From Sorangium cellulosum (GTDB taxonomy: Bacteria > Myxococcota_A > Polyangia > Polyangiales > Polyangiaceae), in contig NZ_CP012673.1 in assembly GCF_002950945.1 (NCBI RefSeq), forward strand, positions 6,834,501-6,898,500: DNA of 64,000 nucleotides, given 5' to 3'. The notes below the pieces were generated by a model. The model worked only from the letters and a program-made list of their open reading frames with translations. It did not search any database and was not told the DNA's origin. Both the position numbers and the translations under genes were made by a program. Of the stretch, positions 13,393-48,500 are shown piece after piece. Position 1 is the stretch's first letter, and every line of letters begins with the position of its first letter.

Positions 13393-14643
13393 TCAGCTCC
13401 ACGCGTACTCGCGGTGGAACCCCTTGATCGCGGTGAGGGTCAAGAGCCCCTGCCCCTGGAAGAACCGCTCGTACAGGTCGCCGAACGGGGCCCGATCGAC
13501 CGTCTTGTCCTTCAGCCCGAAGCACCACTCGGCGTTCAAATCCAGGATCTCGTCGTAGCGGGGCACGTCCAGGCGCACCCGCCGGCTCAGCCGACCGGCG
13601 ATGTCCATGGTGTCCAGGATCTGGCGCGCGCTCGCAGGGACCAGCCCGCTGAAGAACTCCGAGGAGCAGCCAGAGCCGTAGGAGAACATCCCGACGCGGT
13701 TGCTGGGCCCGAGAGGAGCGCTCGCGATGACGCCACAGAGGGCGAGGAACACCGTGCCTGCGTAGATGTTGCCCACCTCGGTGCAGTAGTGCAGCGACGG
13801 CGCGACCCGCTTGCGGAAGTCCTCCTCGATCTCGGCCGCGCCTGCGCCCTGCATCCGACGCATCATTCGCCGGTGTGCGCCCTTGACCATCCCCGCGAAC
13901 GGGGTGTGAAAGGCCAAGTAATCGAAGGTATCGCGGAAGCTGGCCCCCTCGACGTGGTTCGCATATTCCTTGAAGCTCTTCTCGAGGCAGTCCAGGTACG
14001 AGAGCAGGGACAGGTCCGGATCCCCCGTCTCCAGCTCGGCCATGGGACGGCAGACGTCCATCACTTCGTAGCTGTGGCGGCCGCTCGCGCCGGGATCGAT
14101 CTCCCAGAGGACGGGGCGATCGCTGATCAGCATGGCGACCGCGCCCGCAGCTTGTGCGGGCTCGGCGTAGGTGTCCCTCGCGACCGCACGGGCGATGTCC
14201 GTGCAGATCAAGAGCACCTTGGATCCCGGCGAAAAGCCGGACGCCGCGATGGCGCAGGCGACCTGCAAGGAGCCAGCGCCGGCGTAGCAGGCCTGCTTCA
14301 CCTCCATCAGCCGGCAGTTGGGATGGAGGCCGAGCAAGTCGTGGACGTAGGTGCTGAGCGACTTCCCGAAATCGACAGGCGACTCGGTCACCGTGATCAC
14401 CGTCTCGATCCGGTTCCGCTCCTCGGGCGTCAGGCGATCGATGAACGGTTTCGCTGCGTTCACCGCATACGTGACCGCATCCTCGCAGGGCAGCCCGACC
14501 GACTTCTTGTTCATGTTCAGGTTGTCGAGGCGGCTGACGTCCAGCTTCCTCGCCTCGAACATGTCCTTGACGGAGACGTATGTCGGCCCCGCATACAGGT
14601 TGATCGCCTCGATCCCGACCCGTGTATTTCGCATGATCTTCAC
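13393..14643 (-). CDS. HMG-CoA synthase homologue for polyketide beta-branching
   Basis: The 416-residue protein is a HMG-CoA synthase of the PksG/TaC/LnmM kind. In beta-branching it joins an acyl group on a donor ACP to the beta-keto group of a growing polyketide. The catalytic triad is present: E87 in TESPVDF, C119 in KQACYAG and H246 in AFHTPF (numbered from GTG 14643; ATG 14634, at good spacing from a GGAG, may be the true start). It is the last gene of a five-gene operon with the donor ACP, two enoyl-CoA hydratases and a LnmK-like protein. That context, rather than the sequence alone, excludes a role in mevalonate synthesis. Confidence 0.93.
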   Translation of the reverse strand: MKIMRNTRVGIEAINLYAGPTYVSVKDMFEARKLDVSRLDNLNMNKKSVGLPCEDAVTYAVNAAKPFIDRLTPEERNRIETVITVTESPVDFGKSLSTYVHDLLGLHPNCRLMEVKQACYAGAGSLQVACAIAASGFSPGSKVLLICTDIARAVARDTYAEPAQAAGAVAMLISDRPVLWEIDPGASGRHSYEVMDVCRPMAELETGDPDLSLLSYLDCLEKSFKEYANHVEGASFRDTFDYLAFHTPFAGMVKGAHRRMMRRMQGAGAAEIEEDFRKRVAPSLHYCTEVGNIYAGTVFLALCGVIASAPLGPSNRVGMFSYGSGCSSEFFSGLVPASARQILDTMDIAGRLSRRVRLDVPRYDEILDLNAEWCFGLKDKTVDRAPFGDLYERFFQGQGLLTLTAIKGFHREYAWS

Positions 14644-14649
14644 GCTCCG

Positions 14650-15612
14650 CTATGATCTTTGCCTGGGAGGCAGCGAGATGCGTCGAGGCGCGATCGGCGC
14701 CGGCGACAGCGGCTGGAGGACCGCCTCCTTCGGCCCCAGCCGCAGGGGCTGTCGCCGGATCGGCGCCGGCGTGTCGGCCTGCGTCCTCTGGCGCATCTCG
14801 AGCTCTGCAGCCAGGACCCGCGGCAGCGCGGCGAGCTTTCGACCCGCGAGCTCTCGCTTCAGCACGACGAGCGACTCCCTCGGCTTCTCCGCCAGCCGGC
14901 GCGCGATCGCCAGCGCCTCGGCCCCGACCTCCGCCTTTGGCCGCACGGCGAGCGACACCCCGCGTTCGCGCAGCTCGCGGCCGGTATACGAGCGTCCGAG
15001 GAACATCATCTCCGTCGCGAGCGGCCCTCCGAGCTGCTCCTTCAAGACGAAGGTGGCGCCCAGGCCGGGCGTGATCCCGAAGTTCATGGAGCTCGCGCTG
15101 TAGGTGCTCTCCTCCGCCAGCACGACCACGTCGGCGAAGAGCCCGAAGCAGAGGCCGGCGCCCGCCGCGTGTCCCTGCATGGCCGCGATGACGGGGACAT
15201 CGCAGCGCAGGAGCCCCTCGCAGAGGAACGGATGCCCCGAGAAGGGCGCCTTGCCGTCGTCGACATCGGGGAGACCGGCCTCCGCGCCCCCAGTCAAAAA
15301 GACATCCTCCCGCCCTTCGAGCACGACGACCTTGATCTCCGGCCGCGCGACGATCTCCTGGAAACGAGCGACCAGCGCGAGCACCACGGCCTCGGAGAGC
15401 GCGTTGTGGTGCGCGGGATCGTCCACCTGCACCCAGGCGATCGCCCCGTCGATGAGCCGCAGTCTCACCGCGTCGCCCGCCGGGGCTCGGGTCCGCCACG
15501 CCCGCTCCGTCGAACCCACGACGTCGCCGGACGTCGCATCCAGACGGTGTGAGGTGTCTCGCGAGGCGCTGTCGCGCGCGGCCAACGCCGGCTTGCCGTG
15601 GTCTACATCCAT
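14650..15612 (-). CDS. ECH2-type decarboxylase of the beta-branching cassette
   Basis: This is a crotonase-fold protein of 320 residues. The GHAAGAGLCFGLFADVVVL and NFGITPGLGATFVL segments are those of PksI-like ECH2 enzymes, which decarboxylate the glutaconyl-type intermediate left by ECH1. About 50 residues precede the crotonase core and a basic, Pro-rich tail of about 40 residues follows it; both exceed the family norm, so a downstream start is possible. It lies six bases ahead of the HMG-CoA synthase gene. The split into ECH2 here and ECH1 at 16722-17531 follows the known cassette logic. Confidence 0.88.
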   Translation of the reverse strand: MDVDHGKPALAARDSASRDTSHRLDATSGDVVGSTERAWRTRAPAGDAVRLRLIDGAIAWVQVDDPAHHNALSEAVVLALVARFQEIVARPEIKVVVLEGREDVFLTGGAEAGLPDVDDGKAPFSGHPFLCEGLLRCDVPVIAAMQGHAAGAGLCFGLFADVVVLAEESTYSASSMNFGITPGLGATFVLKEQLGGPLATEMMFLGRSYTGRELRERGVSLAVRPKAEVGAEALAIARRLAEKPRESLVVLKRELAGRKLAALPRVLAAELEMRQRTQADTPAPIRRQPLRLGPKEAVLQPLSPAPIAPRRISLPPRQRS

Positions 15613-15622
15613 CGACGCTTCC

Positions 15623-15646
15623 CTTGTGGGCTTGTGGGCTTGTGGG
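15623..15646. repeat. Three tandem 8-base repeats
   Basis: CTTGTGGG occurs three times head to tail in the 79-base gap between the LnmK-like and ECH2 genes, followed by a degenerate fourth copy. On the coding (minus) strand it reads CCCACAAG and sits just upstream of the ECH2 start, so copy number could affect translation. Confidence 0.7.
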
Positions 15647-15691
15647 CTTCCGGGCTGCTCGTCCGGTCGGGCCTGACCGGGAGGCGGGGCG

Positions 15692-16702
15692 CTAGCCAGC
15701 GCCTGTCAGCAGGCGTAGGGCAGCGCTCGCTGGATCGGTGAGGGCCTTGACCGTGAACACATCAGCGATCCTCACGCCGTCGCGGCGGCGGGACAGGGTC
15801 GACCACATCCGCAGGTGATCCGGGCCGCTCGCATCCACCCTTCGGAGCTGGAAGGTGAGCTCGTCACCCGCATCGGCGTTACCGTAGTAGTAGACGTCCC
15901 GGGCCATCGGAGCGACCTCGAGCGCAGCGTCGCGCTCGTACCCTGCCTTCCGCAGGCGCTCGTTGAGGAACAGCCGCTCGCAGACGTCGTGGATCCGCGG
16001 GTAGGACGCGAAGTAGAGGAGGCTCGCGCCGTTGAAATCGTGGTACGGGTTCACCGTGTAGGTACGGGCATCCACGTCGCGATCGACCCAGTCGAACGCC
16101 GTCCCGCCGAGCTCCAGCACGGTGTCTCGGACAGGCTCCGTCGCCTCCAGCGCGAGGCCCTTGATCTTCTGATATCCCTGCCCGAAGGGCGGCAAGATCG
16201 AGTGGCTATGGCAGCGCGATCGCGCGATCTGCTGGGGCGTCGCTCGGGCCAGGGACTTGTTGTCGGTAGCTCGCGTGATGAAGACGCTCGCCATCTCGAC
16301 CCGGACCTCGCCCGCGGCGCCGAGGAACGTCTGCTCGCTGAAGAAACGTTTGTCCCCGAACCGGCTCAGCGCGCCGGTGACGGTGAGGGTCTCGTTCTCG
16401 GCGTACCGGGTCAGGGGGATGGTGCTCTCCATCCGGATCCGCATGAAGCTGGCGTAGAGCCGCTCGCCCCCGCGGTCCGCGAGCTGCCCCGACGGCACGC
16501 CCAGATCGCCGCAGAGCATGCGCCAGTGGATGTCACCGGCCTCCTTCAAGAGCCATCGTTCGGACAGCCCCTCGAACAACATCTGAGGCATGCCCAGGGT
16601 GTACGTGGCTCGGTAATCGAAGCCCTGGGACGACGTCCCCTGAGGTCCGGTCTGCGACTCGGTCAACTGCTGCGACTCGGTGAACGACGGATCGACTGCC
16701 AT
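15692..16702 (-). CDS. LnmK-like bifunctional acyltransferase/decarboxylase
   Basis: The 336-residue protein has the signature start of the LnmK/Pnap_2097 family (GLSERWLLKEAGDIHWRML, about residues 45-63) and the length of a double hot-dog fold. LnmK takes methylmalonyl-CoA, loads it on a partner ACP through a tyrosine and decarboxylates it to propionyl-ACP, which the HMG-CoA synthase then adds to the polyketide. Its place between ECH1 and ECH2, with a discrete ACP and no decarboxylating KS, supports the same job here. I have not located the catalytic tyrosine with certainty. The extreme N-terminus contains a repeated TESQ element. Another hot-dog enzyme of unknown specificity is the alternative. 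Confidence 0.75.
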   Translation of the reverse strand: MAVDPSFTESQQLTESQTGPQGTSSQGFDYRATYTLGMPQMLFEGLSERWLLKEAGDIHWRMLCGDLGVPSGQLADRGGERLYASFMRIRMESTIPLTRYAENETLTVTGALSRFGDKRFFSEQTFLGAAGEVRVEMASVFITRATDNKSLARATPQQIARSRCHSHSILPPFGQGYQKIKGLALEATEPVRDTVLELGGTAFDWVDRDVDARTYTVNPYHDFNGASLLYFASYPRIHDVCERLFLNERLRKAGYERDAALEVAPMARDVYYYGNADAGDELTFQLRRVDASGPDHLRMWSTLSRRRDGVRIADVFTVKALTDPASAALRLLTGAG

Positions 16703-16721
16703 AACGCTCTCATGGTGCCGC

Positions 16722-17531
16722 TCAGGACCGCCGCCCCCGCGGCGAGCCTGGCCGGCCTCCCTCCCATGGAAATGTGCCGTGTCGGACGAAGTTCTCTATC
16801 GCGCCGCGGACCTCCGGGTCGTTCATGGCGCGGTCGGTCTCCTGCATGGCGCGGGCCTCCTGGGCCTCCGCGATCCCCGCGATGTCGCCGAAGTAGCGCT
16901 TGATGCGCCCCAGGGTGCTCGGCGTGAGCCGGGAGACCTTCAGCCACAGCCGTCGCTGCACCTCCTCGGGTCGCTCCGTGACCTCGTCCACGAGGCCGAT
17001 GTCGAGCGCTTGCGAGGCGGTCAGGTTCTCGGTGGTCAGGCACAGCCGCTTCGTGTGATGCAGGCCGATCCGGCGCGACAGGTGCAACCCCACGCACGCT
17101 GGGACCAGCCCCCACAGCGCCTCCGGGAGGCCGAAGGTCGAGCGCGGGGTGGCGACGACGACGTCGCTGACCGCCACGAAGCCGAGCCCGCCTGCGCGGA
17201 CCTGACCATCGACGCTGGCCACGACCACGGCGGGGAGCGATCCGAGCCGGCGCAGCGCGTCCATGTAGGCCGCAGATCCCTCGGGCCCGCGGCGATCGAG
17301 CCCGTCCTCGAAATCGAGGCCGCTGGAGAAGTAGCCCTGCTGGCCCTCGAGCACGACCATCCGGCACGACGGGTCGCGCTGCGCCTCGTCCAGCGCGTGA
17401 GCGAGCTCCCCCAGGAGACGGGAGTTGAAGCTGTTCCTCTGCTCCGCCCGGTCGAAGACGACAGTCCGGCGGCCCTCGGCGACGTGGACCCGGAGCGTCT
17501 GGTAACTCGTCTCGATCCCGAGGTGGCTCAT
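16722..17531 (-). CDS. ECH1-type dehydratase of the beta-branching cassette
   Basis: This 269-residue crotonase-family protein is closest in pattern to PksH-like ECH1 enzymes, which dehydrate the HMG-type intermediate during beta-branching. The segments QVRAGGLGFVAVSDVVVA and EALWGLVPACVGLHLSRRIG match that group, including the conserved LxPACV. It lies 27 bases behind the donor ACP gene and 19 bases ahead of the LnmK-like gene, in one operon. Confidence 0.9.
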   Translation of the reverse strand: MSHLGIETSYQTLRVHVAEGRRTVVFDRAEQRNSFNSRLLGELAHALDEAQRDPSCRMVVLEGQQGYFSSGLDFEDGLDRRGPEGSAAYMDALRRLGSLPAVVVASVDGQVRAGGLGFVAVSDVVVATPRSTFGLPEALWGLVPACVGLHLSRRIGLHHTKRLCLTTENLTASQALDIGLVDEVTERPEEVQRRLWLKVSRLTPSTLGRIKRYFGDIAGIAEAQEARAMQETDRAMNDPEVRGAIENFVRHGTFPWEGGRPGSPRGRRS

Positions 17532-17558
17532 CCTGAAGCTCCGCAGCGAGGCCGGCGC

Positions 17559-17804
17559 TCAGCCCGAATGCGCCCGGTACACCAGATCGACCAACCCGCC
17601 AATGTCGCGGACCTTGCCGAGCTCCACCAGCGGGATGCTGATGCCGAGCTCGTCGGAGAGCGACGTCGCGATGTCGGCGCGATCGACCGAATCGGCGCCC
17701 AGATCTTTCAGGGTCACGCCGAGGGAGATTCGGTCCTGCGTGACGCCGGGAATCACGCGTACGATGTGTTGCTTGAGCAGAGCAAAGATTTCTTCCCGCG
17801 TCAT
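17559..17804 (-). CDS. Discrete donor acyl carrier protein
   Basis: The 81-residue protein is one ACP domain with phosphopantetheine serine S39 in LGADSVDRADI. Discrete ACPs with this GADSVD motif serve as the acyl donor in beta-branching cassettes (AcpK, TaB/TaE, LnmL). It is the first gene of the cassette operon; the 230-base gap upstream, to the frameshifted reductase, should hold its promoter unless both are co-transcribed. It should be primed by a phosphopantetheinyl transferase that is not in this window. Confidence 0.92.
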   Translation of the reverse strand: MTREEIFALLKQHIVRVIPGVTQDRISLGVTLKDLGADSVDRADIATSLSDELGISIPLVELGKVRDIGGLVDLVYRAHSG

Positions 17805-18034: not shown

Positions 18035-19055
18035 TCAGGGATCGGCGATCTTCAAGAGCTGCTTGCCCCGGTTCTCGCCCGCGAAGAGCCGGCGAAGCGC
18101 CTTCGGGGCGTTCTCCAGCCCCTCCTGGACATCGACATGATCCTTGATCTGCTCCGCCGCGACCCACGCGCTCAGGTCTTTGACAGCCTCGCCGAAGCGC
18201 TTGGCATAATCGATGATAACGAAGCCCTCCATCCTGCCGCGCTGGATGATGAGGTTCATGTAGTTCCTCGGCCCGCGCGGGAGCTCCGCGGCGCCGTAGC
18301 TGGAGATGGCGCCGCAGAGCACCACCCGCCCCCGGAAGGCGAGCTCCGCGAGGGCGGCGTCGAGGATGGGACCACCCACGTTGTCGAAGTAGACGTCGAT
18401 GCCGTTCGGGCACAGCTCCCGGAGGCGGGTCCGGACGTCCTCGGACTTGTAGTCGATGGCGCCGGTGAAGCGGGCCTCTCGGAGGAGCCATGCGCATTTC
18501 TCGGCGCCGCCCGCGATGCCGATCACGCGGCATCGCTTGATCCTGGCGATCTGCCCGACGACCGAGCCCGTCGCGCCGGCTGCCCCGGAGACGACCACCG
18601 TCTCGCCCTCCACGACGCGCCCGACGTCGAGCAGCCCGAAGTACGCCGTGAGCCCGGTGAGCCCGAGCGTGCTCAGCGCCCGCGTGATCGGCATGCCCGG
18701 CGGGAGCTTGGTGACCCCCCCCGGCGACCGTGGCGTCCACCAGCGCGTAATCCTGCCAGCCGAACAGGCCTTGCACCAGATCGCCGCGAGCATAACCAGG
18801 GTGCCTGGAGTCCACGACGCGCGCCACGGCGAGGGAGCGCATGACATCGCCGATGCGGACAGCAGGGAGGTAGGTGTCGTGCGCGATCCACTCGCGCTGG
18901 GTCGGGTCGATCGAGAAGTAGAGGTTGCGGACCAGGATCTGACCGCTCGCCGCGGGCGCGGGGATGGGCTCCTCCACCCAGCGGAAGAGGCGATCATCGA
19001 CAGGTCCAGCGGTACGTGCAGCCAGGCGCCACTGTCGATTGATGCCCTGTGTCAT
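18035..19055 (-). pseudogene. MDR-family NADPH reductase with a frameshift
   Basis: Two frames together encode a protein of about 339 residues of the medium-chain reductase family (CurA/PTGR-like, zinc-free). The first (from ATG 19055) gives the GroES-like part up to YALVDATVAGG; the second gives the Rossmann part with VVSGAAGATGSVVGQIA and ends IADP at 18035. The break falls in a run of eight C on the plus strand (18715-18722); seven would restore one frame. Both halves are otherwise well conserved, so either the mutation is recent or it is a sequencing error. Such enzymes reduce enones, and one could tailor the polyketide, but no link is shown. Confidence 0.8.
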
Positions 19056-19174
19056 CGCGCGCGGCTTCATATCATGAAGCCGCATGCGCCGCAACGGCGA
19101 GCGCCTCGGCCGGTGAAGATGTCGCGGTGGGGTCGGTGATCCGCGAGCGCGGGCCGTCGACTACAGGAGAACGC

Positions 19175-20364: not shown

Positions 20365-23292
20365 ATGCACAGGGATCTTCACATGAACAGCAGGTTGATC
20401 GGCGGGCTGAAGGACAGCCCGTGGTTCTTTCGCGTGGTCGCGCGGCCGGATGCGCCGGTCCGCCTCTTTTGCTTCCCTTATGCCGGCAAGGGCGCCTCGG
20501 TGTACATGCACTGGGCAGAGGCCCTGCCCGGCGTGGACGTGGTCCCGATCCAGCTCCCGGGCCGCGAGAACCGCATCAAGGAGCGGCCTGCCGAGCTGCT
20601 CTCTCCGCTGGCCGAGGAGATCGTCGGCGCGATGGCGCCGCTGCTCGATCGCCCCTTCGCGGTCTTCGGGCACAGCATGGGGAGCCTCCTCGCCTTCGAG
20701 GTCGTGCGGCGGGTGCGCGCCCGGTACCGGCAGGAGCCGTTGCACCTGTTCGTGTCGGGCCGCGGCGCGCCGCACCTGCCGCCTCGGTCGGCCGATCTGC
20801 ACAGGCTCCCGGACGCCGAGTTCGCCGCCGCGATCCAGAGCACGTACGGCGGGATCCCGGACGTCATCCGAGGCGACCCGGAGCTGCTGCGCATGTTCCT
20901 CCCGGCGCTGCGCGCCGACCTGGGCATGCTGCATTCCTATGCCTTCGAGCCCGGGCCCAAGCTCTCGTGCCCGACCAGCGTCTTCGGCGGCGATCGCGAT
21001 CCACACGCCCGCGTCGACGAGCTCCGCGCGTGGGAGGAGCTGGTCGAGGGGCCGTTCCGCCTGCGCATGTTCGAAGGCGATCATTTCTTCGTGAACAGCC
21101 AGCGCGCTGCGCTCGTGCGCGCGATCGCAGCAGAGCTCGATCCGGTCGTCCGAGGCGGCGAGAGCCGCCCCAGCGCGGCGGCCGGAGCGGACACCCAAGA
21201 GGCACGGCAGACGCGCACCGTCTTTGTGTTCCCAGGGCAAGGTTCGCAGGCGAGAGGCATGGGCAAGGCGCACTTCGACGCCTTCCCGCGTCAGGTGGCC
21301 GAGGCCGAGGAGATCCTCGGCTACTCGCTCCGCCGGCTATGCCTCGAGGATCCAGCGCGCGAGCTGAGCCAGACGCAGTACACCCAGCCCGCGGTGTTCG
21401 TCGTCAGCGCGCTCGCCTACCTCGCGCGCCTCGACGGCGGTGGGGCGCTGCCCGACGCGGTCGCTGGCCACAGCCTCGGCGAGTACACGGCGCTCTTCGC
21501 GGCCGGCGTCTTCGACTTCGCGACCGGCGTCCGCCTGGTTCGCCGGCGTGGCGAGCTGATGAGCCAGGCCGAGGGCGGAGGCATGGCCGCGGTGATCGGG
21601 CTGCCGATCGACGCGATCCGCCTCGCGCTCGAGGGCGCGGGGCTCGGCAGGCTCGAGGCCGTCAACCTCAACAGCCCGCGCCAGACGGTGCTCGCCGGCG
21701 CCCTGGAGGACATCCAGCAGGCGGGCCCTGTGCTCACGGCGGCCAAGGCGCGCTACGTGCAGCTGAAGGTGAGCGCTGCGTTCCACTCGCGCTACATGGA
21801 GCAAGCGCAGCGCGACTTCGCCGCGTTCGTGGCCGGCTTCCGCTTCGCGCGGCCGCGGATCCCGGTGATCGCGAACTGCACGGCGAGGCCGTACCCTGAC
21901 GACGAGGCGGGGATCCGCGATCTCCTCGTGCGGCAGATCACGAGCCCCGTGCGCTGGTACGAGACGATCTCGTACCTGCTCGCGTCGCCGGGCGTCGCGT
22001 TCGAGGAGATCGGCCCCGGCAACGTCCTCACGCGGCTCATCACCGAGATCCGCGAGGAGCCGCTGCCGATCGACGCCTCCGCGCGCGGCGCGACGCCGCG
22101 CGACGTCGCGCCTCCGTCCGCGCCGCACGCCTCATCGCCGCGCGACGTTGCCGTCGCGCCTCCGCCCGCGCCGCACGCCTCATCGCCGCGCGACGTTGCC
22201 GTCGCGCCTCCGCCCGCGCCGCACGCCTCATCGCCGCGCGACGTTGCCGTCGCGCCTCCGCCCGCGCCGCGGCCTTCGCTCCCGCGCGATGGAATCGTCT
22301 TCCTCTACACCGGGCAGGGCTCGCAGTACTTCGGGATGGGCGCCGGGCTCTACGAGGACGACCCCACGTTCCGCGCGGTCATCGACCGCTGCTCCACGCT
22401 CGCCGCGCCGCACATCGGCGGCTCGCTCGCCGACATCCTCTACCGGGCGCCGAAGCCGTTCGCTGCGTTCGATCGGCTGCTTCACACGAACCCCGCGCTC
22501 TTCGCCGTGGGCTGCGCGCTCACGCGCGCCCTCGAGGTGCACGGCGTCCGCCCCGACGCCGTGCTCGGCTACGGTGTCGGCGAGTACGCGGCCGCGGTCG
22601 CCGCCGGCGCCCTCAGCCTCGACGACGGCCTCGCGCTCTCGATCGAGCAAGCCCGCCTGCTCGACGAGCGCGCGCGCAGCGGCGCGATGCTCGCCGTCTT
22701 CGACAGCCCCGAGATCATCGCGCGCCACCCGTCCGTGTTCTCCGGCTGCGAGCTCGCGGGCGTCAGCTTCCAGCGGCACTTCGTCATCAGCGGCCCGGCA
22801 CCCCAGATCGCCGAGGCGACGCGGAGCCTGAAGGCGCTCGGCATCGTGACCTTCCCGCTCCCGATCCACCACGCGCTGCACTCGTCGCTGATGGACGACA
22901 TCGAGATCCCGTTCCGGCGCTTCGCTGGCCGGCTCGCGCTCAGGCCCCCGCGCGTCGCCATCTTCTCGCCCGCCGCCGGGAGCTTTCTGCCCGAGGTCAC
23001 GACCGACACGCTGTGGCGCGCGTGCAGGGCGCCGGCCGCGTTCTCCAGCGCCATCGACGCGCTCGAGGCCCACCGGGTCCGCCGTTACGTCGATGTCGGC
23101 CCGTCGGGCACGCTCGCGAGCTTCATCAAGCACAAGCTCGGAGACGGCTCGCGCACGGTCACGCTGCTCACGCGCTTCGGTGCAGACCCGAGATCCGTCG
23201 AGGCAACGGCGAAGGATCTCTCCTCGCGCGCGCCGACGCCAGGCCACAGCCCCGACACGAGCTTCCGCGGACGAGGGGAGCATCGCCTCTAG
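20365..23292 (+). CDS. Thioesterase-acyltransferase-acyltransferase fusion (trans-AT)
   Basis: The 975-residue protein has three parts. Residues about 20-265 are a type II thioesterase (nucleophile S104 in GHSMG, late GDHFF), which clears stalled acyl groups. Residues about 285-575 are a malonyl-type AT (GQGSQ, nucleophile S370 in GHSLGEYTAL, FHSRYM) and should supply all PKS modules, none of which has its own AT. A linker of three 16-residue repeats follows. Residues about 645-940 are a second AT-fold domain with GQGSQ and His839, but at the nucleophile position it reads GYGVG, with Gly737 replacing Ser. That domain is likely inactive as a classical AT; a structural role is possible. ATG 20383 is an alternative start. 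Tandem ATs in which the second proofreads or is silent are known in trans-AT systems. Confidence 0.93.
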   Translation: MHRDLHMNSRLIGGLKDSPWFFRVVARPDAPVRLFCFPYAGKGASVYMHWAEALPGVDVVPIQLPGRENRIKERPAELLSPLAEEIVGAMAPLLDRPFAVFGHSMGSLLAFEVVRRVRARYRQEPLHLFVSGRGAPHLPPRSADLHRLPDAEFAAAIQSTYGGIPDVIRGDPELLRMFLPALRADLGMLHSYAFEPGPKLSCPTSVFGGDRDPHARVDELRAWEELVEGPFRLRMFEGDHFFVNSQRAALVRAIAAELDPVVRGGESRPSAAAGADTQEARQTRTVFVFPGQGSQARGMGKAHFDAFPRQVAEAEEILGYSLRRLCLEDPARELSQTQYTQPAVFVVSALAYLARLDGGGALPDAVAGHSLGEYTALFAAGVFDFATGVRLVRRRGELMSQAEGGGMAAVIGLPIDAIRLALEGAGLGRLEAVNLNSPRQTVLAGALEDIQQAGPVLTAAKARYVQLKVSAAFHSRYMEQAQRDFAAFVAGFRFARPRIPVIANCTARPYPDDEAGIRDLLVRQITSPVRWYETISYLLASPGVAFEEIGPGNVLTRLITEIREEPLPIDASARGATPRDVAPPSAPHASSPRDVAVAPPPAPHASSPRDVAVAPPPAPHASSPRDVAVAPPPAPRPSLPRDGIVFLYTGQGSQYFGMGAGLYEDDPTFRAVIDRCSTLAAPHIGGSLADILYRAPKPFAAFDRLLHTNPALFAVGCALTRALEVHGVRPDAVLGYGVGEYAAAVAAGALSLDDGLALSIEQARLLDERARSGAMLAVFDSPEIIARHPSVFSGCELAGVSFQRHFVISGPAPQIAEATRSLKALGIVTFPLPIHHALHSSLMDDIEIPFRRFAGRLALRPPRVAIFSPAAGSFLPEVTTDTLWRACRAPAAFSSAIDALEAHRVRRYVDVGPSGTLASFIKHKLGDGSRTVTLLTRFGADPRSVEATAKDLSSRAPTPGHSPDTSFRGRGEHRL
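22126..22269 (+). repeat. Three tandem 48-base repeats in the AT-AT linker
   Basis: Three near-identical 48-base units encode ASSPRDVAVAPPPAPH and bridge AT1 and AT2. A degenerate partial copy precedes them. The high identity suggests recent copy-number change. Confidence 0.85.
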
Positions 23293-24555: not shown

Positions 24556-25992
24556 TCAGGCTTCCCTTGCGCCCGGGTCGGCGGGCGAGCGCTCCACCGC
24601 CGGAGGGAGCTTGTGGCCCGCGCCGAAGCGGTGCGCGAGCACCCGGGCCATCATCCCCGGCGTGAGGATCGCGCCCGAGGGGCGGACCATGTGCATGACC
24701 TCCATCATGACGCGGGCGACGTCCGGCTGGTGCGCTGCCGCCTCGACGACGAGATCGCCATAGGACCGGAAGAGGCTCCCCGGCCATCCAACGAGGAACT
24801 TGCCCAGGATCCCCGCCTGATCCAGGCCCCGGGTCTGCGGCCACGCCGCGTCGCCGCCGACGGCGAGCCGCCACGTCTCCTCGTTCAGCTTCGCCAGCCG
24901 CTTCTGGAAGCGGCGTCCGAAATCGCGCAGGTCGCCGCCGGGCCGGGCGCGCCGGTGACGCGCGAGCTCGGCGCCGAGCGCGAGCGCGCCGAGCGCCGCG
25001 CTCGTGATGCCCTGTCCGTAAATCGGGTTGAGCGCGCACACCGAGTCCCCGACGAGGACGAAGCCGCCCGGAAAGCGGCTCAGCCGCTCGTAGTGCCGCA
25101 GCCGGTTCTCCGTCGATCCGCTGCGGTTCACCGGGCCGACCGGCTCCGCCTGCGAGAGGGCCTCGAAGAGCGCAGGGCTCGGCAGCGTGCGCGCGAAGGC
25201 GCGGAAGCTCGCCTCGTCGCCCGGGGGCTCGTCGTCCCCCATCGTGGCGAAGCAGACGAACCAGCGGTTGCCCTCGACCCGGAAGATCGCGCCGCTCCGC
25301 GGCTGGTGGGGCGCGCGGGGCATGGTCGAGAGGAGGTTCCACGACGGCGAGAAGTCCGGCCTCGGCGTGTAGAGCTGGCACGTGTAGCTGAGCGCGCTGT
25401 CGATCACGGTCTCGGCGGGGGCTTCGAAGCCGAGCTCCTTCAGCCAGGCAGCGGCCCGCGACCCGCGGCCGCAGGCGTCGACGACGAGGTCGCCCGCGAG
25501 GCGCTCGCCGGCTCCGCCGTCCTGCTGCAGCAAGACGCCGGTCACGGCGCCGCCGTCCTCGCTCGGCGTGAGCCCGACCACGCGGCGTCCCTCTAGGAAC
25601 GAGACGCCCGACGCCGCGAGGTAGCGGCGGATGTGGTGGTCGAGCAGCGGCCTCGTGCACGCGCGCACGACGAGCTGCGAGTCGAACGGCGCGAGCGCCC
25701 CGCCGCGGAAGAACAGCGTGGCGCCGCGGCCGTAGTCGAAGGTGATCGCGCCGTCCTTCTCCAGATCCGCGCCGAGGTCGGGGAAGAGCCGCTCGAGCTC
25801 CTGCCTCCCGCGCGTGAGGACGATATGGATGTGCCGGCTCTGCGGGACCCCCCGCCGGGGCGTGGGCTCCGACGGGTAGTGGTCCCGCTCGACGACCGTC
25901 ACCCGCGCGAAATGCTCCTTGAGCGTGCGGGCCACGACCAGCCCGGCCATGCTCCCGCCGACGACGATTGCGTGGCCCAACGCAGGCTGCAT
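24556..25992 (-). CDS. FAD-dependent monooxygenase-like oxidoreductase
   Basis: The 478-residue protein has an N-terminal dinucleotide-binding motif (IVVGGSMAGLVVA, about residues 9-21) and the second FAD motif GDSVCALNPIYGQGI (D316 onward), as in the group of aromatic hydroxylases, epoxidases and flavin halogenases. I see no WxWxIP motif, so a halogenase is unlikely. It is the last gene of the PKS operon, with its ATG directly after the stop of the lipase-UbiB gene, so an oxidative tailoring step (hydroxylation or epoxidation of the polyketide) is the natural inference. The ribbon after residue 330 is longer than in the shortest relatives. Confidence 0.85.
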   Translation of the reverse strand: MQPALGHAIVVGGSMAGLVVARTLKEHFARVTVVERDHYPSEPTPRRGVPQSRHIHIVLTRGRQELERLFPDLGADLEKDGAITFDYGRGATLFFRGGALAPFDSQLVVRACTRPLLDHHIRRYLAASGVSFLEGRRVVGLTPSEDGGAVTGVLLQQDGGAGERLAGDLVVDACGRGSRAAAWLKELGFEAPAETVIDSALSYTCQLYTPRPDFSPSWNLLSTMPRAPHQPRSGAIFRVEGNRWFVCFATMGDDEPPGDEASFRAFARTLPSPALFEALSQAEPVGPVNRSGSTENRLRHYERLSRFPGGFVLVGDSVCALNPIYGQGITSAALGALALGAELARHRRARPGGDLRDFGRRFQKRLAKLNEETWRLAVGGDAAWPQTRGLDQAGILGKFLVGWPGSLFRSYGDLVVEAAAHQPDVARVMMEVMHMVRPSGAILTPGMMARVLAHRFGAGHKLPPAVERSPADPGAREA

Positions 25993-28900
25993 TCAGACCT
26001 CCACCCGACTCGACCCCTGCCCACCAGGCAGCCGGACCGGCGGCTTCTTGGCGCGCGCGACGAGGCGCTGCTGCTTCACGATGGCGAAGAGGGCGAGGAT
26101 CCCGAGAGCAATCCAATACCTGCGCCCCACGTGCGGCACCTTGTCGACGAGGTTGATGATCCACCCTTCTTCCCCGAGGAGGGGCGCGGCGATCTCCCGC
26201 TCGTGCTGGCGCAAGTACACTAGGCCCATCGTGGCCGCGACGACGACGATCGCGGTACGGATGAACTTGCCCACCGAGAGGATGATCTCCTCGACGATGC
26301 TCCGGCCCCCCATGAACACGAAGAGGCGCTCCCGGAAGCGCGGCAGCACGATGGACGCATAACCGCCGATTCGCTGCGGGAGCCCGACGAGCGCCGCGAG
26401 CGCTTGGCGGTTCCCGCGGCGGGTCGCCTTTACATAATACGACTTGAGGAGCTTCGGATAATTGACCTTCGGGTAGAGGGCGCCGATGGTCATGTCGAGC
26501 GTGTGGTACGTCCTGCCGAGCTTCAGCATGCTCCAGTTCACGCGCATGCGGTGGCGCATGAGGATCTTGCCGACCTCGTCGGAGCTGCTCGCGAGCGAGC
26601 GCTGGTGGACGGGCAGCGATCGCCTGCGCGTGCGCGCGTACCAGGAGCGCATGCACGCAACCACCTCGAACTTGACCGCCTGGATGTCGATGACCGGGAG
26701 CTCGCCGCTCAGCCAGAGCATCATGTCGACCGCCTCGCTGAAGTTCTGGCGCGCGAGCGCCATGAGGTAGAGCCGGTACGCCGAGATGAACTCCGTGTCG
26801 AACGTGCCGACCGTCCCGAAGTCGAGGAAGGCGATCCGGCTGTCGCGGAGCAGCACGACGTTCCCCGGGTGGATGTCGCCGTGGCAGAGGTTGTCCTCGA
26901 ACATCTGCCGCATGAGCGAGTGGCAGAGCGTCTTCACGACCTTCTTGCAAGAGATGTTGTTCTCCTCGCACCACGCGCGCGCCCGCGCCGGGTCGGAGCG
27001 GCTGACGCGGAGGTACTCGGCCACGGATACGCCGTGGATGAACTCCATCACGAGGACGCGGTCGTTGCACAGCCTGTCGAACGGCCGCGGGACATAGATC
27101 TTGTGCTTCTTGAGCGTCCTTCGGATGTCCCGGATCGCGGCGAGCTCGTGCCGGTAATCGAGCTCGTCCTCGAGCACCTCCTGCACCTCCTTGAGCATCC
27201 CCTTCCACCCGAACCGCTCGCCGATGCCGAAGCGCTCGAACGTGTTGAACACGAACGAGATCCAGGCGAAGTCCTTGTGGAAATACTCCACGGCGTACGG
27301 CTTCTGCACCTTGATCGCGACCCAGACGCCGTTCCTGCGGAGCCGCGCCTTGTGGACCTGCGACAGGGACGCCGCGGCGGCGGGGACGTCATCGAACTCT
27401 TCGAAGGTCTGCTCCAGCGGATGGCCGAGGCAGTCTTCGATCATGCGCCGGGCGACGTCGCTCGGGAAGCCGAAGCTCCGCTCCTGCAGGTTGGCGAGCT
27501 CGTCGCAGAACTCGTTCGAGAAGAGGTCCGTGCGCATCGACAGGACCTGGCCCAGCTTGATCCAGAGCCCCCCGAGGTTCTCGAGGTAGACCCGGGTCAG
27601 CCTCGCCACCTGGACCGGCCGGCTGCGGAGCGGGATGAGGCGCAAGACGAAGACGAAGGTCCTGTACATGAGGTACAGCACCCGGAAGCGCGACGGCTTG
27701 CTGACAGGGTAGATCTCGACGGGCCTCTCCCGGCCGTCGGTCGCGATCTTCGTCGGGATGAACTTCGCTGGGAGCAGGGAAGACGGCGGCTCCATCGGCG
27801 GGCCGAAGTCGCCGACCTTCAGCGCGGCCGGAACCCAGACCGGCCGCTTCACCTCGCCGTTCGTCTTCTCGTCCGGCACCTCCACCACGATGTCGTCGGC
27901 GGCCGCGGACAGGAGGGACTTGATGTTGATCACGCCCGACAGGCCGAGGAGATGCACGTAGGCGTCGACGTGCTGGTAGAGCATCTCGGAGATGAAGCTG
28001 TCGCTCCCCTTGCGCACGGCGCCGACGAGCTTGACGGCGTCCTTCTGGATGTGCTGGTAAACGAGGCTCTCGGTCGTGAGGCGCTTGATCACGTTGTCGA
28101 ACGACATGGTGATCAGCTTGCCCGTGGCGATGGTGGGCTCGTAGATGCGCGAGATGATGTCCATCTCCGAGGCGATGCCGGTGTAAGGCACGATGTCGAG
28201 CGAGTTCGCCACCCGGTCGGCCCGCCCCGCGAGCTGCGCGTCCGAGTGGGCGGCGAAGTCCGCGTTGCCAGCGGGGATCGCGGCGAGGGTCGTCGTCCAG
28301 AGGGTCGCCTTGCGCCCGGGGTCCCAGCGCAGGGTCTCGGGGACCTCGTCCGTCCCCTGCAGGTCGGCGAGGCACAGCGCCAGCGTCCCGGCCAGCGCGC
28401 CGCCGAGGCTGTGCCCGGTGACGTCGATACGCACCGGGCCGCGCGCCTTGGCGACGCGCTCCTTGAGGAACTCGATCAGCGTCTTGCCGCTGCCGGGGAG
28501 CTCGTCGGGCGCGTGGATGGCGAGGATCTCCTCGATCCCCTTGTCGACGCCCTTCGAGATCTTGGGCTTCAGCCCTTGCGCCGGCTTGCCGTAAGGCCAG
28601 TCGACCATCGTGAAGATGTCGTTGACCTCGTTCACGTTCTCGATGGAGAAGGGGTTCGTGCCGCGGATGACCACGGCGAAGCGGTTCTTCTCCTTCAGGT
28701 GCTCGACGACGAAGACGAGGCGATCGTCGATGAACGACGCGAGCTTCGAGTTGACGACGCCCGGGCCCCACACGATCTTCCAGCGGCCGCGGACCGGCTC
28801 GAGCTCGTTCAGGAAGCGCTGGACCAGGAGGAACATCCTGGCGACATCGATGGTCGCGAGGCCGATCATCCCCACGTAGGAGATGTACGCGAGCGTCAGC

Positions 28901-28994
28901 ATCTCCTGCCGGTGCCGGAGGAGCTCCTGGGCGCCGGCGGACGCGCTCTGCGTCTTTTTCTTCGGCGGTGTCGTCTCGATCTGCGACTGGGTCA

Positions 28995-28995
<1 letters not shown>
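25993..28995 (-). CDS. Class 3 lipase-like domain fused to a UbiB/ABC1 atypical kinase
   Basis: This 1000-residue protein joins two families. Residues about 20-370 resemble a class 3 lipase, with nucleophile S196 in VTGHSLGGALAG. Residues about 440-900 are a UbiB/ADCK/ABC1 atypical kinase: KLGQ in GGLWIKLGQVLSMR, the Ala-rich loop AAAASLSQVHKA, D707 in CHGDIHPGNVVL and the DFG of FLDFGTVG. Two membrane segments at the C-terminus (about residues 925-945 and 965-985) are typical of UbiB proteins and would anchor it. UbiB proteins act as ATPases in lipid and quinone handling. Start and stop overlap as TAATG with the PKS gene upstream, so it is translationally coupled to it. Its role in the pathway is unknown; handling a lipid-like product at the membrane is one idea. 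Confidence 0.9.
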
Positions 28996-42536
<13,541 letters not shown>

Positions 42537-42551: not shown

Positions 42552-45500
42552 TCACTGAGCGCTGCTTCTGGACAGCTCGAGCAGCCCGTCGAGCTCGACG
42601 GACTCACCGCTCCCGAGGCGCCTCAGCAGATCGCCCAGCTCCTCGTCGCTCCCGGTCTCGGCGACCGGCGACGTCGAGAAGTGCGCCACGGCAGGGGCTG
42701 ATGGCGGTCCGGCGGAGGCGAACGGTGACGCGGGGGCAAGAGCCGCCGGCGCGGGGGCAAGAGCCGCCGGCGCGGGGGCAAGAGCCGCCGGCGCAGGGGC
42801 AGGAGCCGCCGGCGCGGGGGCAAGAGCCGCCGGCGCAGGGGCAGGAGCCGCCGGCGCGGAGGCGGTCTTCATGAGGTGATCGAGGAGCATGCGCGGCGTC
42901 GTGAGGCTGAAGAGATCGGTCGTCTTCAGCCGCACATCGAGCTCCTTGTTGAGGTTGTTGATGATGTCGACACCCATGATGGAGTCGACGCCCATCTCCA
43001 GGAACGGCTGATCCAGATCCAGCTTGTCACGGTCGATCTGCAGGACGTTGCAGAGGCTGTCGATCACGAACCTCTCGATCCGGGCCTCCCTCTCGCCCGC
43101 GCGCGGCGGCGGCGCTGCCGGCGGCGGCGCGGCCTTGATTTCAGGCGCGGCCGGCTGCGCTGCAGGCAGCTCCGCGCGCGGCGGCGCTGCGACCGGCGGC
43201 GGCGCGGCCTTGATTTCAGGAGCGGCCGGCTGCCGCGCGGGCAGGTCCGCGCGCTCGGCGACCAGCACGGCCTGGTACCACGCGTCGGGCGACCCATCGC
43301 CCTCGCCGAACGCGCCGCCCACGGTGAAGCCCTCCTCCCGGAGGAGCCGGAACCACGTGCTGACGTTCGAGATCGGCGAGTGGGGGATCCGCTGCTCGGG
43401 GTCCGTGTAGAGCCACCATCCGTCGAGGCAGCCGAAGATGATGGTGAGCAGGTCCAGGTTCCGCGTCACCTCGTAGAGGACCATCAAGCCGCCCGGCTTG
43501 AGGAGCGACCGGGCGTGCCGGATCGTGCCGCGGATGTTCCGCGTGGCGTGCAGGACGTTGGCCGCGATCACCATGTCGTAGCTGCCCGCCGAGAAGCCCT
43601 GCTCGACGACGTCGCGCTCGATGTCGAGCACGCGGCCCTCGAGGAACGGGTGCGCGGGCTTGAACCGCCGCTGCGCGAGCGCGATGAAGGCGCGCGAGAG
43701 ATCGGTGAACGTGTAGCTGATGCGGTCCTTGAACCGCCCGCTCGCCTTGAGGACGGGCCCGGTCGTGCTCCCGGTGCCGCCGCCGATCTCGACGATCGCG
43801 ACCCGCTCGCCGGGCGGGAGCTCGGCGAGCCGCGCGCCGACGTAGGCCTCGAAGACCGTGGCGACGAGGCCGTTGAAGTACGCGGCCGTCGTGTTGCCGC
43901 CGTAGATGTTCTCCAGGTTGGACGGGTCCGCGAACAGCACGTCCGTGGCCGGGACCTCGCCGCGGAGGATCTCCGGCAGGCGCTGCGCGCACAGGCTCAC
44001 CACCTTGAGCTGCGACTTCACCTCGGGGAAGCGCTGCAAGAGGCGCTCGCGCCCCTGATCGAGCGAGGCGAGCGTCCCGCTCGCGACGAGGCGATCGATC
44101 TCGCCGGTGGAGACGAGCTCCCCCGCGTGCCGCGTCACGAAGCCCGCCTTCTCGAGGATGGTCAGCAGCGCGTCGAACTGGCGCTGCCGCGCCGGCACGA
44201 TGCGCAGGTCCGCGGCGAGCCGGGCGGGCTCGTAACGCTCTCCGCGCCCGAGCAGGCGGCCCATCCTCTGGAACGCGTCGAGCAGCAGGAGGTGCACGAA
44301 CGGCTCCAGCTCGTCCGACGCGCTCCGGAGCCTCTCGACCAGGGCGGGATCGGGCGGCGGGATGATCGCGGGCAGCTCCGGGAGGATCGACCTCCGCGCG
44401 GGGGCGAGGGGTCCGGAAGGCAGCGGCTCCGGCGCGCGAGGCTCGGGCTGGGGCGGCGCGGCGTGGCCCGCGACGATGCCGACCTGCTCCCTGCCGTGCT
44501 CGTCGAGCGCCATGCACAGGAACTGACCAGCGCGGCGATCGAGCACGCGGCGGAGCGCCTCGATGCCATCCTCCGGCGCGAAGAAGCTGACCCCCTGCCC
44601 TTCGAGGCGCGCCCTTCCGGCCGGGTCGATCTCGTTGACGTCCCACACGCCCCAGTTCACGAGCAGGACGGGGAACGGCGCGCGGCCGATGAGCGAGCAC
44701 ACGTAGGCGTCCTCGAAGGTGCTGGCCGCGGCGTAGTGGCTCCGCCCCTCGGTGCAGGCGAAGGAGAGCGCCGACGAGAAGAACGCCATGAAGTCGAGCG
44801 GCTCGTCGCGGAGGCTCTCGTAGAAGGCGACGCTGCCCACGACCTTGGGCGCGAGCACCGCGCGCAGGCTCTGCTCGTCGAGCTCCCTCAGCGTCTCGCG
44901 CGACAGCACCAGGCCGGAGTGGAAGGCGCCCGCGATGCGGCCGAAGCGCGCCCGAGCCACCGAGACCGCGCCGCGCATGCTGTCGAGATCGGCGGCGTCG
45001 GCCCGCACGTACAGCGCCTCGCCCCCGGCGGCCTCGATCTCCGACAGGAGCCGCCGCCGCGCCTCATCGAGCGGGCTGCGGCCCACGATGACGAGGCGCG
45101 CCTTGTAGCGCCGCGCGAGGTCGCGGCAGAGCTCCCTCCCGACGCCGCCGGCCCCGCCCAGGATCAGGTAAACACCCCGATCGCGGTACACCGGCGCCGC
45201 CGGCTCCGGCATCGCCACCTGGAACAGCCGCCGGACCCAGCGGCGCCCGCCGCGGATCGCGATCGGCTCGCCGGTCAACATCGGCGGCTCGCGCCGGAGC
45301 GGCTGGAGCCGCGCCGCGAGCTCGTCGGCCGATCGCAGATCCGAAAGGTCGTGGAGATCGAGATCGATCGAGGTCACCCGCGCCGTCGGGAACTCCTGGG
45401 AGAGGGTCATCGCGAAGCCGTGGAGCTCCGCGAAGTGGGGCCTCGCCGCGTCCTCGGCCCGGACGCGGTGGACGTTGGCCATCGCGATCTTGATCTCGAT

Positions 45501-48500
45501 CGGCGTCCGCCCGAGCGCGCCGTGCGCGATGAGCGCGCGCGACAGCCGGTAGAGCGCGATGACGCCGAGCTCCGTGCTGCGGCTCACCGCGCGCGGATCC
45601 AGCGGCAGCGGCTCGTTGCCAGCGCGCAGGCCGCCGAGGAAGTAGACCGTGTGGAGGGCGCCGATGCCGCGGCCCTGGAGCGACGCGAGCAGGTTGGACC
45701 AGCCCGCCGGATCCGACGCGTCGACCTCGAACGGTCCGTCGGGCCGGTGGCCGTTCGGGGCGCTCAGCGTGACCGCGATCGTGCGCCGGCCGGGGTGCCA
45801 CGCCTCGATGACACGCACCGCCGCCGAGAGCCCCTCGGGGATCACGACGAGCACCACCCCGTCGCGGTCCTCGGGCAAGGAGCCCCGGAAGATCGGCCGG
45901 ATCGGGCGCAGGTCAGGCGAGGCCTCGTCGAGCGGCGCGGGCAGCCAGCGGGGCTCGTAGCAGAGCTCCTCGACCCGGTACCTCGGCGCGCGCTGGGCGC
46001 GGGCAGGCGGCGCGTCCACCACGGCGGCGGTCGCGGCGTCGACGGCGGCGCCGACCCAGTGGCGCTCCCGCTCGAACGGGTAGAGGGGCAGCGCGACCTT
46101 CGCCGGCAGGGGATCCCGGTAGAGCTGCTGCCACGCGATCTCGCCGCCCGCGACCCAGAGGCGCGAAAGCTCCCGGGCGCGCTCGGGCGTGAGCTCCTGG
46201 AAGCCGGGAGCGGCGAGCGCGGGCGCGCCGCCGCCGACGTCGTCGCGCCGGCCGAGGAGCCCTGAGACGAGCGACCGGCCGTCCTCCCTGCCGTCGAGGT
46301 AGGCCGAGAGCTGCGCCACGAGCTCGTCGACGCTGGAGGCGACGACGGCGAGCCGCGCCGGCATCGGCGTCCGGCAGACCTGCAGCGTGAAGGCGATCTC
46401 GTCGAGGCCGGGCAGGTCCGCGGCGCCGCGGCGCTTCGCGAGGAAGGCGCGCAGCGCTTCGGCGTAGGCCCGCAGCCGCTCCTCGGTGCGCGCGGACAGG
46501 ACGACGATCTGGACGGCCTCGGGCCGCCGGAGCGGCTTCGGGGCCACGTGCTCCTCGACGACGACATGGCAGTTCGTGCCGCTGAACCCGAAGGAGCTGA
46601 CCGCGGCGCGCCTCGGCCCGCCCGCGGGCTGCTGCCAGGGGTGGAGCCGATCGCTCACGTAGAACGGGCTCTCGTCGAGCTTGGTGTGCCGGTTCGGCCG
46701 CGCGAAGTGCAGCGACGGCGGGATCTCCCGGTGGCGCATCGCGAGCAGCGCCTTGATGAGGCTCACGACGCCAGCGGCGCCCGAGGTGTGGCCGATGTTG
46801 CTCTTGACCGACCCGATCGCGCAGACCCGCCGGCGATCGGTGGACCTGCGGAACGCGGACGTGAGGGCGGCGATCTCGATCGGATCCCCGAGGGGGGTGC
46901 CCGTCCCGTGCGCCTCGATCAGGGAGATGCTCTCGGGGTCGATCCCGGCCTTGCGCCACACGTCGAGCAGCAGCGCCTCCTGCGAGGCGGCGCTCGGCGC
47001 GGTGATGCCGTTCGTGCGCCCGTCCTGGTTCATGCCGGAGGCGCGGATGATCCCGTCGATGCGGTCGCCATCGCGGAGCGCGTCCTCGAGCCGCTTGAGG
47101 ACCACGGCGCCGACGGCCTCGCCCGGGACGATCCCGTCGGCGCCGTCGTCGAACGCACGGCACTGGCCGGTCGGCGAGAGCATGCCGGCGCGGCTCATCA
47201 TGATGTACGGCCGCACCGTCAGGTACAGCGTGACCCCGCCGGCGATCATGAGGTCCGCCTCGCCGGTGACGAGCTCCTGGCAGGCCTTGTGGACGGCCAC
47301 GAGCGACGAGGAGCACGCGGTGTCGAGGCTCACCGCCCCGCCCTTGAGGTCGAGGAAGTAGGCGATGCGCGCGGCGAGGATCGAGGTCGCGTTGCCGATC
47401 ATCGCGTGCGCGCGGTACTGGTCGTCGCCGCCCGACTCCCGGAGGATGTCCTGGTAGTCGCCGCCGAGCACCCCGATGCAGACGCCGCAGCGCGCGCCGC
47501 GGGCCTTGCGCGCGTAGCCGGCGTCCTCGAGCGCGGCCCAGCACGCCTCGAGCATCAGCCGCTGCTGCGGGTCCATCAGCCGACCCTCGGCCGGCGCGAT
47601 CCCGAAGAAGCCGCCGTCGAACCGGTCGACGCCCTCGAGGAAGCCGCCCCACTTGCTGAGGGTCTTGATGGAGTCGCTCGACGCGCCCGCCTCGTAGTAA
47701 CGCTTGGCGTCCCACCGGTCGCCCGGGACCTCCCGGACCGACTCGACGCCGCCGCGCAGGTTCTCCCAGAACGAGAAGACGTCGCCGGCGCCAGGGAAGC
47801 GGCCGGCCATGCCGATGACCGCGACGCACCCGGACGAGGGCGCGGCGGCGCGCGCTTCGTGGTGCTCTGCGGCGCGCGGCGCGGGCCGCCGCTCGGCGTA
47901 GATCTTGGCGACGTGGCGGGACAGGTCCCGCACGCTGGCGTGGTCGTAGAGGGCGTGGACCTCGAGCGAGAGGCCGAGCTCGCGGTTGATGCTCTCGAGG
48001 ACCTGCAGGCCCTGGAGCGAGTCGACCCCGAAGTCGGCGAAGCGCGCGTCGATGTCGAGCTCGTGCGGCTGCATGCGCAGCACGCCGCGCACGATCTCCG
48101 CGACCCGGGCGGCGACGTCGGCGACCGGCGCCGAGGCCTCCCGCGCGCCGGCGGCGGGCGACGACGCCCGCGAAAGGGGCGCGGCGCCCCGGATCACCTC
48201 GCTGTAGCTGCGCGAGCCCACGAAGGCGGCGAGGTTCTCCTCCGCGACCGCGGCCTCGGCCTCGTCGGGGCGGGACTTCCGGAGCGTCAGGGCGACGTAG
48301 CGGAACAGGCCCAGGGCGAGCGCCTTGCCGAAGCGCAGCCACCCGCGGTGCATCGGGGCGACCTGCTCGAGCGCGGGGTGCGCCCGGTGCAGCGCCGCGA
48401 GGTTCTCCTCGAAGCGGGGATCGTCGAGGAAGTTCGCCACCTCGCGGCTCGCGTCGACGCAGGACTCCACGCGCAGCCCCGAGCGCGCGAGGCAGCGGGC

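Follow-up and report, generated by a model that had tools for sequence, protein, structure and literature searches.

We analysed a window of 64 kb from the single-contig, 14.56 Mb genome of Sorangium cellulosum, in which an operon of five minus-strand open reading frames forms the end of a trans-acyltransferase (trans-AT) polyketide synthase (PKS) cluster that reaches to about position 96473 (window coordinates are used throughout). The operon had been read, in an original prediction made from the sequence alone, as a β-branching cassette in which a LnmK-like enzyme takes the place of a decarboxylating ketosynthase (KS), and the predicted positions, order, strand and protein families of its genes were all confirmed. 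In order, with intergenic gaps of 6 to 79 bases, the genes encode a discrete donor acyl carrier protein (ACP) with the motif LGADSVDR (17559..17804), the cassette dehydratase ECH1 (16722..17531), an acyltransferase (AT)/decarboxylase-like protein of the LnmK family (15692..16702), a discrete ECH2-like protein in which the catalytic His is replaced by Arg (R274; 14650..15612), and an HMG-CoA-synthase homologue, HMGS (13393..14643). The Pfam families found were PP-binding for the ACP, ECH_1 twice, and HMG_CoA_synt (C and N) for the HMGS; the discrete ECH2-like protein also exceeded the cut-off of PRK07110.

The HMGS contains the motifs TES, KQAC and FHTPF, which we take to hold its catalytic Glu, Cys and His, and its best PDB matches are 8s81, CurD and PksG. 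ECH1 keeps the equivalents of Asp68 and Glu137 of PksH, as aligned through the Bacillus velezensis homologue, whose residues are offset by 4 from the published numbers. The intact catalytic residues that had been predicted are thus present in these two proteins, but the statement fails if the discrete ECH2 was meant as well.

By sequence, the operon holds what defines an HMGS β-branching cassette, namely a donor ACP, an enzyme that makes the acyl-ACP (KS0 or AT/DC), an HMGS and an ECH1. The choice between KS0 and AT/DC already stands in a printed definition of such cassettes (PMC7618002, in part), so the principle is known. The usual HMGS cassettes, of the bacillaene (PksF/G/H/I), mupirocin and virginiamycin type, have the same donor ACP, HMGS, ECH1 and ECH2, but they also have a stand-alone Ser/Thr-type KS and an Asn in the donor ACP, whereas in Sorangium no such KS was found and the residue is Asp. 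The leinamycin set LnmK-LnmL-LnmM(-LnmF) and the largimycin set LrgK-LrgL-LrgM1 resemble the Sorangium operon in having a LnmK-family enzyme, a donor ACP with GADS, an HMGS and an ECH1, and they likewise contain no decarboxylating KS for the donor ACP.

The LnmK-like protein and its family

The LnmK-like protein matched the NCBIfam model LnmK_bifunc (TIGR04098) at 194.2 bits, against a cut-off of 100 (193.7 bits in the genome search), and also passed the sister model Pnap_2097 (TIGR04099) at 167.7 bits, against a cut-off of 125. A Pfam search of the protein gave no match, and searching the PDB by sequence alone brought up LnmK with a weak E value of 0.0015. An AlphaFold (AF2) model, built on an alignment of 27 sequences and with a mean pLDDT of 86.9, is predicted to adopt the double hot-dog fold of LnmK; in a Foldseek search of the PDB with this model, ranks 1 to 7 were all LnmK (TMq 0.68-0.69, identity 20-21%). 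Tyr62 of LnmK (chain 6x7l, within TYLAF), which we take to be the active tyrosine, aligned with Y83 of the window protein (within LYASF), so that both checks proposed in the original prediction, by profile and by structure, came out in its favour. The residue of LnmK responsible for decarboxylation is described as a loop Asn, with its position left unspecified in the part of PMC8666670 that concerns it; in our alignment it would most plausibly be N216, in DVNGVGLLYFASY, which is aligned with N224 of the window protein.

The conservation of both residues was followed in 121 loci, of which one yielded no match and another a short one; from the 119 extracted sequences 11 remote, partial or duplicate ones were excluded, leaving 108 rows. 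For comparison with the leinamycin type we used fetched Streptomyces loci in which LnmK, ACP and HMGS genes lie side by side (lnmKLM rows). The Tyr62 equivalent is kept in 3/3 rows from cassettes of the Sorangium kind, 9/9 lnmKLM rows, 10/10 other Streptomyces LnmK rows, all 23 Bacteroidota rows with a KS after the LnmK-like stretch and 52 of the remaining 54; in the nine Streptomyces rows with such a KS the position is Leu without exception. The loop Asn is kept in 108/108 rows.

Membership in the family does not make the protein a close relative of leinamycin LnmK. Its identity to a near-copy of that enzyme is about 22%, and in the 108-row tree the lnmKLM rows and their kin (19 rows) are separated from it by a branch of 3.76 with support 100. 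In a more careful tree of 49 rows this branch measured 4.28, the rows of the window, of S. cellulosum So0157-2 and of Azospirillum adjoined it, and the cassette rows and Streptomyces LnmK rows together formed one side of a branch (100/100). Within the family tree the protein sits on the same side as the Pnap_2097 proteins and the LnmK-like stretches that precede a PKS KS, which likewise keep the loop Asn. These relatives differ in setting, since Pnap_2097 proteins stand alone in other clusters (nitrilase-type, Burkholderia) and the others precede a KS, with the Tyr-to-Leu change in Streptomyces. The three cassette rows were split in the best trees, and a single clade was not rejected (p 0.397); shared origin with lnmKLM and independent recruitment of a LnmK-like enzyme both pass the tree tests. 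As the HMGS also falls in a clade separate from that of LnmM, the Sorangium cassette is, in both trees, no close relative of the leinamycin-type set.

The gene is under purifying selection relative to So0157-2 (dN/dS 0.235), and the values for the HMGS, ECH1, ACP and discrete ECH2 genes are 0.115, 0.232, 0.249 and 0.519. Its rarity in myxobacteria, also predicted, was borne out by a survey of 377 Myxococcota genomes: 14 matched the protein at E 0.001 or better, and two exceeded the LnmK cut-off, this genome and one with a distant protein at 100 bits. Within the genus, the LnmK-like protein is present in two of six genomes. Of 282 Myxococcota genomes, eight have a match to the HMGS at E 1e-60 or better: this genome and seven more, in which the identity is 35-38%.

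The wider family was surveyed in 80 loci retained out of 159 confirmed ones from a collection of 84,980 species, with flanks of up to 10 kb and often less. An HMGS lay within the fetched flanks of a single locus, that of So0157-2. Twenty-seven of the loci (23 from Bacteroidota and 4 from Streptomyces) have a KS behind the LnmK-like stretch, an arrangement that resembles a loading module. Streptomyces PKSs that start in this way share a similar layout (L024, L097, L099, L101, L107, L134, L135, L137 and L138, some of them the same genome twice), and L024 adjoins a predicted elfamycin efflux gene. In loci of Aquimarina and related genera (L033-L038 and L041), the LnmK-like stretch and KS are followed by two or three ECH2-like stretches in six of seven cases; the stretch of L036 ends early. 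In Burkholderia anthina (L026:7001-9951), a Pnap_2097 gene lies in a nitrilase-type cluster and is followed by a methylmalonyl-CoA mutase gene. A mutase query matched only this locus and L016 among 97 loci (the 80 and 17 others), and because only two loci matched we did not count this hint on the substrate as support.

Donor ACP and the search for a decarboxylating ketosynthase

The best NCBIfam match of the ACP was PRK07117, at 72.9 bits and so below the cut-off of 79. In the ACP tree it groups with the LnmL donor ACPs (89/80), on long branches and with bootstrap values that had not settled. The residue that precedes the phosphopantetheine Ser was compared in 31 donor ACPs. It is Asn in 17/17 cassettes of the KS type and Asp in 13/13 partners of a LnmK-family enzyme, comprising 10/10 LnmL proteins and the three ACPs of this genome, So0157-2 and Azospirillum. 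The remaining ACP, from Bacillus velezensis, is the only one with Asp to fall among those of the KS type in the tree, and in the fetched stretch no KS gene lies between the ACP and HMGS genes. For 15 of the 17 KS-type loci the assignment comes from the KS sequence, and for L158 and L167 from an annotated KS gene; the donor ACP of L167 is the end of a PKS and not discrete, and the LnmK gene that accompanies the LnmL row L139 contains a stop in the record. Both types occur within about 3 kb in the Streptomyces genome G748, a LnmL with Asp (L132) and, beside a Ser-type KS, an ACP with Asn (L181). With rows treated as independent, the association gives a Fisher p of 8e-9; on the ACP tree two changes suffice, so the residue is a clean marker that reflects few events.

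No KS-Q gene was found in the window, as predicted, or in the rest of the cluster to about 96473: all 15 cluster KSs carry Cys in the alignment, as do their 15 counterparts in So0157-2. Two of the KSs have lost His residues, Bx both and C10 the first, and therefore should not elongate. A search of the whole genome for the motif T[AG]QSSSL, made without a positive control, gave two matches, neither of which encodes the peptide as read from the bases. In the known cassettes used as reference (15 loci from plasmids, a Chitinophaga genome and three Actinomycetes genomes), the active residue of the stand-alone KS is Ser in 14 and Thr in one, with both His kept in the 12 loci checked. Since the known enzymes proved to be of the Ser type, the genome was searched again with such a KS, from Sandaracinus, and Cys was present in each of the nine genome KSs nearest to it, those with matches at E 1e-20 or better. 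Cluster alignment and the motif and homology searches of the genome thus yielded no stand-alone KS without the active Cys. The proposal that the LnmK-like enzyme stands in for a KS agrees with this result, with the correction that the enzyme replaced would be a Ser-type KS and not the KS-Q originally named.

Acceptor module, related clusters and surroundings

By domain anatomy, the acceptor of the branch would be the module KS5-ECH2-ACP of PKS protein B, which has no KR. The ECH2 embedded in it and the discrete ECH2 share 62.5% identity, and the likeness seems, by eye, to extend into the linker. Aligned to PksI, the position of His230 is His in the embedded ECH2 and Arg in the discrete one, in this genome and in So0157-2 alike; between the two genomes the embedded ECH2 is 89% identical and the discrete ECH2 protein 62%. 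This His is reported to be catalytic and universally conserved in β-methyl-branch decarboxylases (PMC7501309, in part), and it is present in six of seven reference ECH2s, the seventh (L170) having Phe. Because of this difference at the His230 position, decarboxylation is expected of the embedded ECH2 and improbable for the discrete one. Gln at the same position marks the atypical ECHQ, which is described as reprogramming the aurantinin line (PMC11425284, in part).

The cluster is present as a whole in So0157-2, with PKS proteins A to D 75-78% identical. A related cluster lies on plasmid NZ_CP007796.1 of Azospirillum argentinense, where genes for ACP, ECH1, LnmK-like protein and a flavin adenine dinucleotide (FAD) monooxygenase occur with an HMGS gene farther off; identities to the Sorangium proteins are 39% (ACP), 54% (ECH1), 49% (LnmK-like) and 68% (HMGS). 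LnmK-like and HMGS genes were also found on the A. argentinense plasmid NZ_CP032325.1. All 15 Sorangium KSs have collinear reciprocal best matches in NZ_CP007796.1. The Azospirillum line differs in that its ECH2 lies outside the PKS, carries Gln for the catalytic His and is fused to a 16th KS, a dead one with Glu in place of the Cys, Ser in place of the first His and Asp in place of the second. The closest match of this KS is KS5, from the branching module, at 47.3%; no other ECH2 was found in bases 1-98000 of the record. We read the fusion as a KS-ECH2 piece that was probably duplicated from the branching module. For Azospirillum, orphan trans-AT families have been mentioned (PMC7930024, in part).

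Within the window, the plus strand carries a gene (20365..23292) for a protein with a Thioesterase domain and two Acyl_transf_1 stretches (fabD, 393 bits), which would provide the trans-ATs of the cluster. On the minus strand lie genes for an FAD monooxygenase (24556..25992; FAD_binding_3), with a 42.6% match at the Azospirillum locus L023, there beside LnmK, and for a lipase-like and ABC1-kinase protein (25993..28995; ABC1, Lipase_3), which is 78.9% identical in So0157-2. The trans-AT PKS genes include D (28995..42536, minus strand), with modules KS-KR-ACP, KS-DH-KR-ACP and KS-KR-ACP-TE; C (42552..63119, minus strand), with five KS modules, one KS having Gln for its first His; B (minus strand), whose C-terminal end occupies 63116..64000 and which continues to 81616; and A, beyond the window at 81594-96473. 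Upstream of the ACP gene, a zinc-type oxidoreductase gene (18035-19094, minus strand) is frameshifted relative to the intact So0157-2 gene. The end of A, KS-FMO, together with the ACP at the start of B (81597-83498; L001:18097-19998) resembles an oxygen-insertion (Baeyer-Villiger) module, a type known, from partial accounts, in other trans-AT lines such as that of oocydin. Past the cluster, at 98339-158000, inspection of protein starts by eye suggests a 1052-residue RND efflux pump-like gene and a second large PKS cluster on both strands with FkbH-like and acyl-CoA-dehydrogenase-like genes. No named product for the cluster was found in the literature searched; rowithocin was considered and rejected because its 18 modules and P450s do not fit (PMC12800573, in part).

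Proposed branching route and its alternatives

We propose, with a probability of about 0.68, that the operon is an HMGS β-branching cassette in which the LnmK-family protein replaces both the AT and the decarboxylating KS, and that the branch is most likely ethyl or ethylidene. By analogy with leinamycin, the LnmK-like enzyme would take an α-carboxyacyl group from CoA, most likely from methylmalonyl-CoA, onto the discrete ACP and decarboxylate it there to an acyl-ACP, most likely propionyl-ACP. The HMGS would then add the acyl group to the β-ketone on the ACP of module KS5-ECH2-ACP, ECH1 would remove water, and the ECH2 domain within that module would remove CO2 to leave the branch. TaE-TaF, which we take to be the ethyl-branching pair of myxovirescin, would have the same outcome. 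The likeness, an ethyl-type branch in a myxobacterium, is one of description only (the ethyl group in a title cited by PMC6835853, and TaC/TaF in PMC7618002, in part). LnmK is described as converting methylmalonyl-CoA to propionyl-ACP, and by analogy so in largimycin (PMC9396626, in part), and the leinamycin branch is described as derived from methylmalonyl-CoA (PMC9570651, in part). Leinamycin has no trans-acting ECH2 and retains the carboxylate (PMC12560621, in part), unlike the Sorangium cassette with its ECH2.

Several observations weigh against this proposal, above all against its choice of substrate. The LnmK-like protein shares only about 22% identity with LnmK of the leinamycin type and is set apart from it by a long branch (3.8-4.3), and at this distance its substrate need not match. 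Its nearest relatives outside cassettes resemble PKS loading domains. The HMGS forms a clade with those of So0157-2 and Azospirillum (100/99) and is nearest to the HMGSs of KS-type cassettes (80/70; no stand-alone KS was seen in the fetched stretches of L115, L157 and L165, three of the 17 rows so labelled), with the LnmM proteins in a clade of their own (100/100); a clade with LnmM was not rejected (approximately unbiased test, p 0.10). Two of its residues stand out: P89, two past the catalytic Glu, where 25 of 26 others have Gly, and V197, where 25 of 26 have Thr or Ser. Both are present in all three HMGSs of LnmK cassettes and absent from LnmM, which uses propionyl groups, and the search for a residue common to the cassette HMGSs and LnmM that would mark propionyl use gave one weak position (281) only. 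HMGS specificity matters here, because the HMGS BonG is reported to yield no product with propionyl-ACP (PMC12560621, in part). Finally, none of the genes seen around the operon determines which acyl group is donated.

Three of these points lend weight to a variant in which the same cassette starts from malonyl-CoA, the donor is acetyl-ACP and the branch is an ordinary β-methyl or exomethylene group: an enzyme far from leinamycin LnmK, an HMGS nearest to those of KS-type cassettes and the lack of a substrate-fixing neighbour are all what it would lead one to expect. The grouping of the donor ACP with LnmL, and not with the ACPs that partner a KS, speaks against it, as donor ACPs that use methylmalonyl or propionyl units are reported to form clades apart from acetyl ones (PMC12560621, in part). 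We consider malonyl-CoA a serious but clearly less probable substrate. A more elaborate idea, that propionyl-ACP serves twice, priming the first KS and donating the β-branch, with the discrete ECH2-like protein steering the line in the manner of the aurantinin ECHQ, seems to us rather unlikely.

A role of the LnmK-like protein and its ACP in supplying the starter unit of the assembly line, instead of the branch donor, is very unlikely. No loading module was seen at the head of the line, protein A carrying the Cys of its first KS around residue 190; no other discrete ACP was found in 1-104000, by a profile that missed the known discrete ACP of Azospirillum; and the LnmK-KS arrangement of the Bacteroidota and Streptomyces relatives would fit a starter role. 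The pair lies, however, within one operon with ECH1, ECH2 and HMGS, its ACP is of the donor type, and in its absence the HMGS would have no known donor and no decarboxylase. Least probable of all is a route without the final decarboxylation, in which the loss of His from the discrete ECH2 would leave the carboxylate on the branch, as happens in leinamycin. The change to Arg in both Sorangium copies, and to Gln in the Azospirillum protein, the only ECH2 found in bases 1-98000 of that record, would agree with such an end, but in the two Sorangium genomes the embedded ECH2 still has this His and dN/dS is below 1 for all five genes.

In the literature searched, which was short on subscription journals, we did not meet the Asp/Asn marker of donor ACPs, and we regard as new a distant LnmK-family enzyme in the cassette role outside the leinamycin family, accompanied by an ECH2 and belonging to a line common to two phyla. 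Our findings suggest that the LnmK solution for charging a β-branch donor is not confined to the leinamycin family, the role of so distant an enzyme being one that we infer, and that an orphan assembly line is common to Myxococcota and Alphaproteobacteria. The residue before the phosphopantetheine Ser may mark the type of partner, Asp for a LnmK-type enzyme and Asn for a KS. The ECH2 series, with His inside the module, Arg in the free protein and Gln in the fusion to a dead KS, looks like different stages of a transfer from cis to trans by module duplication.

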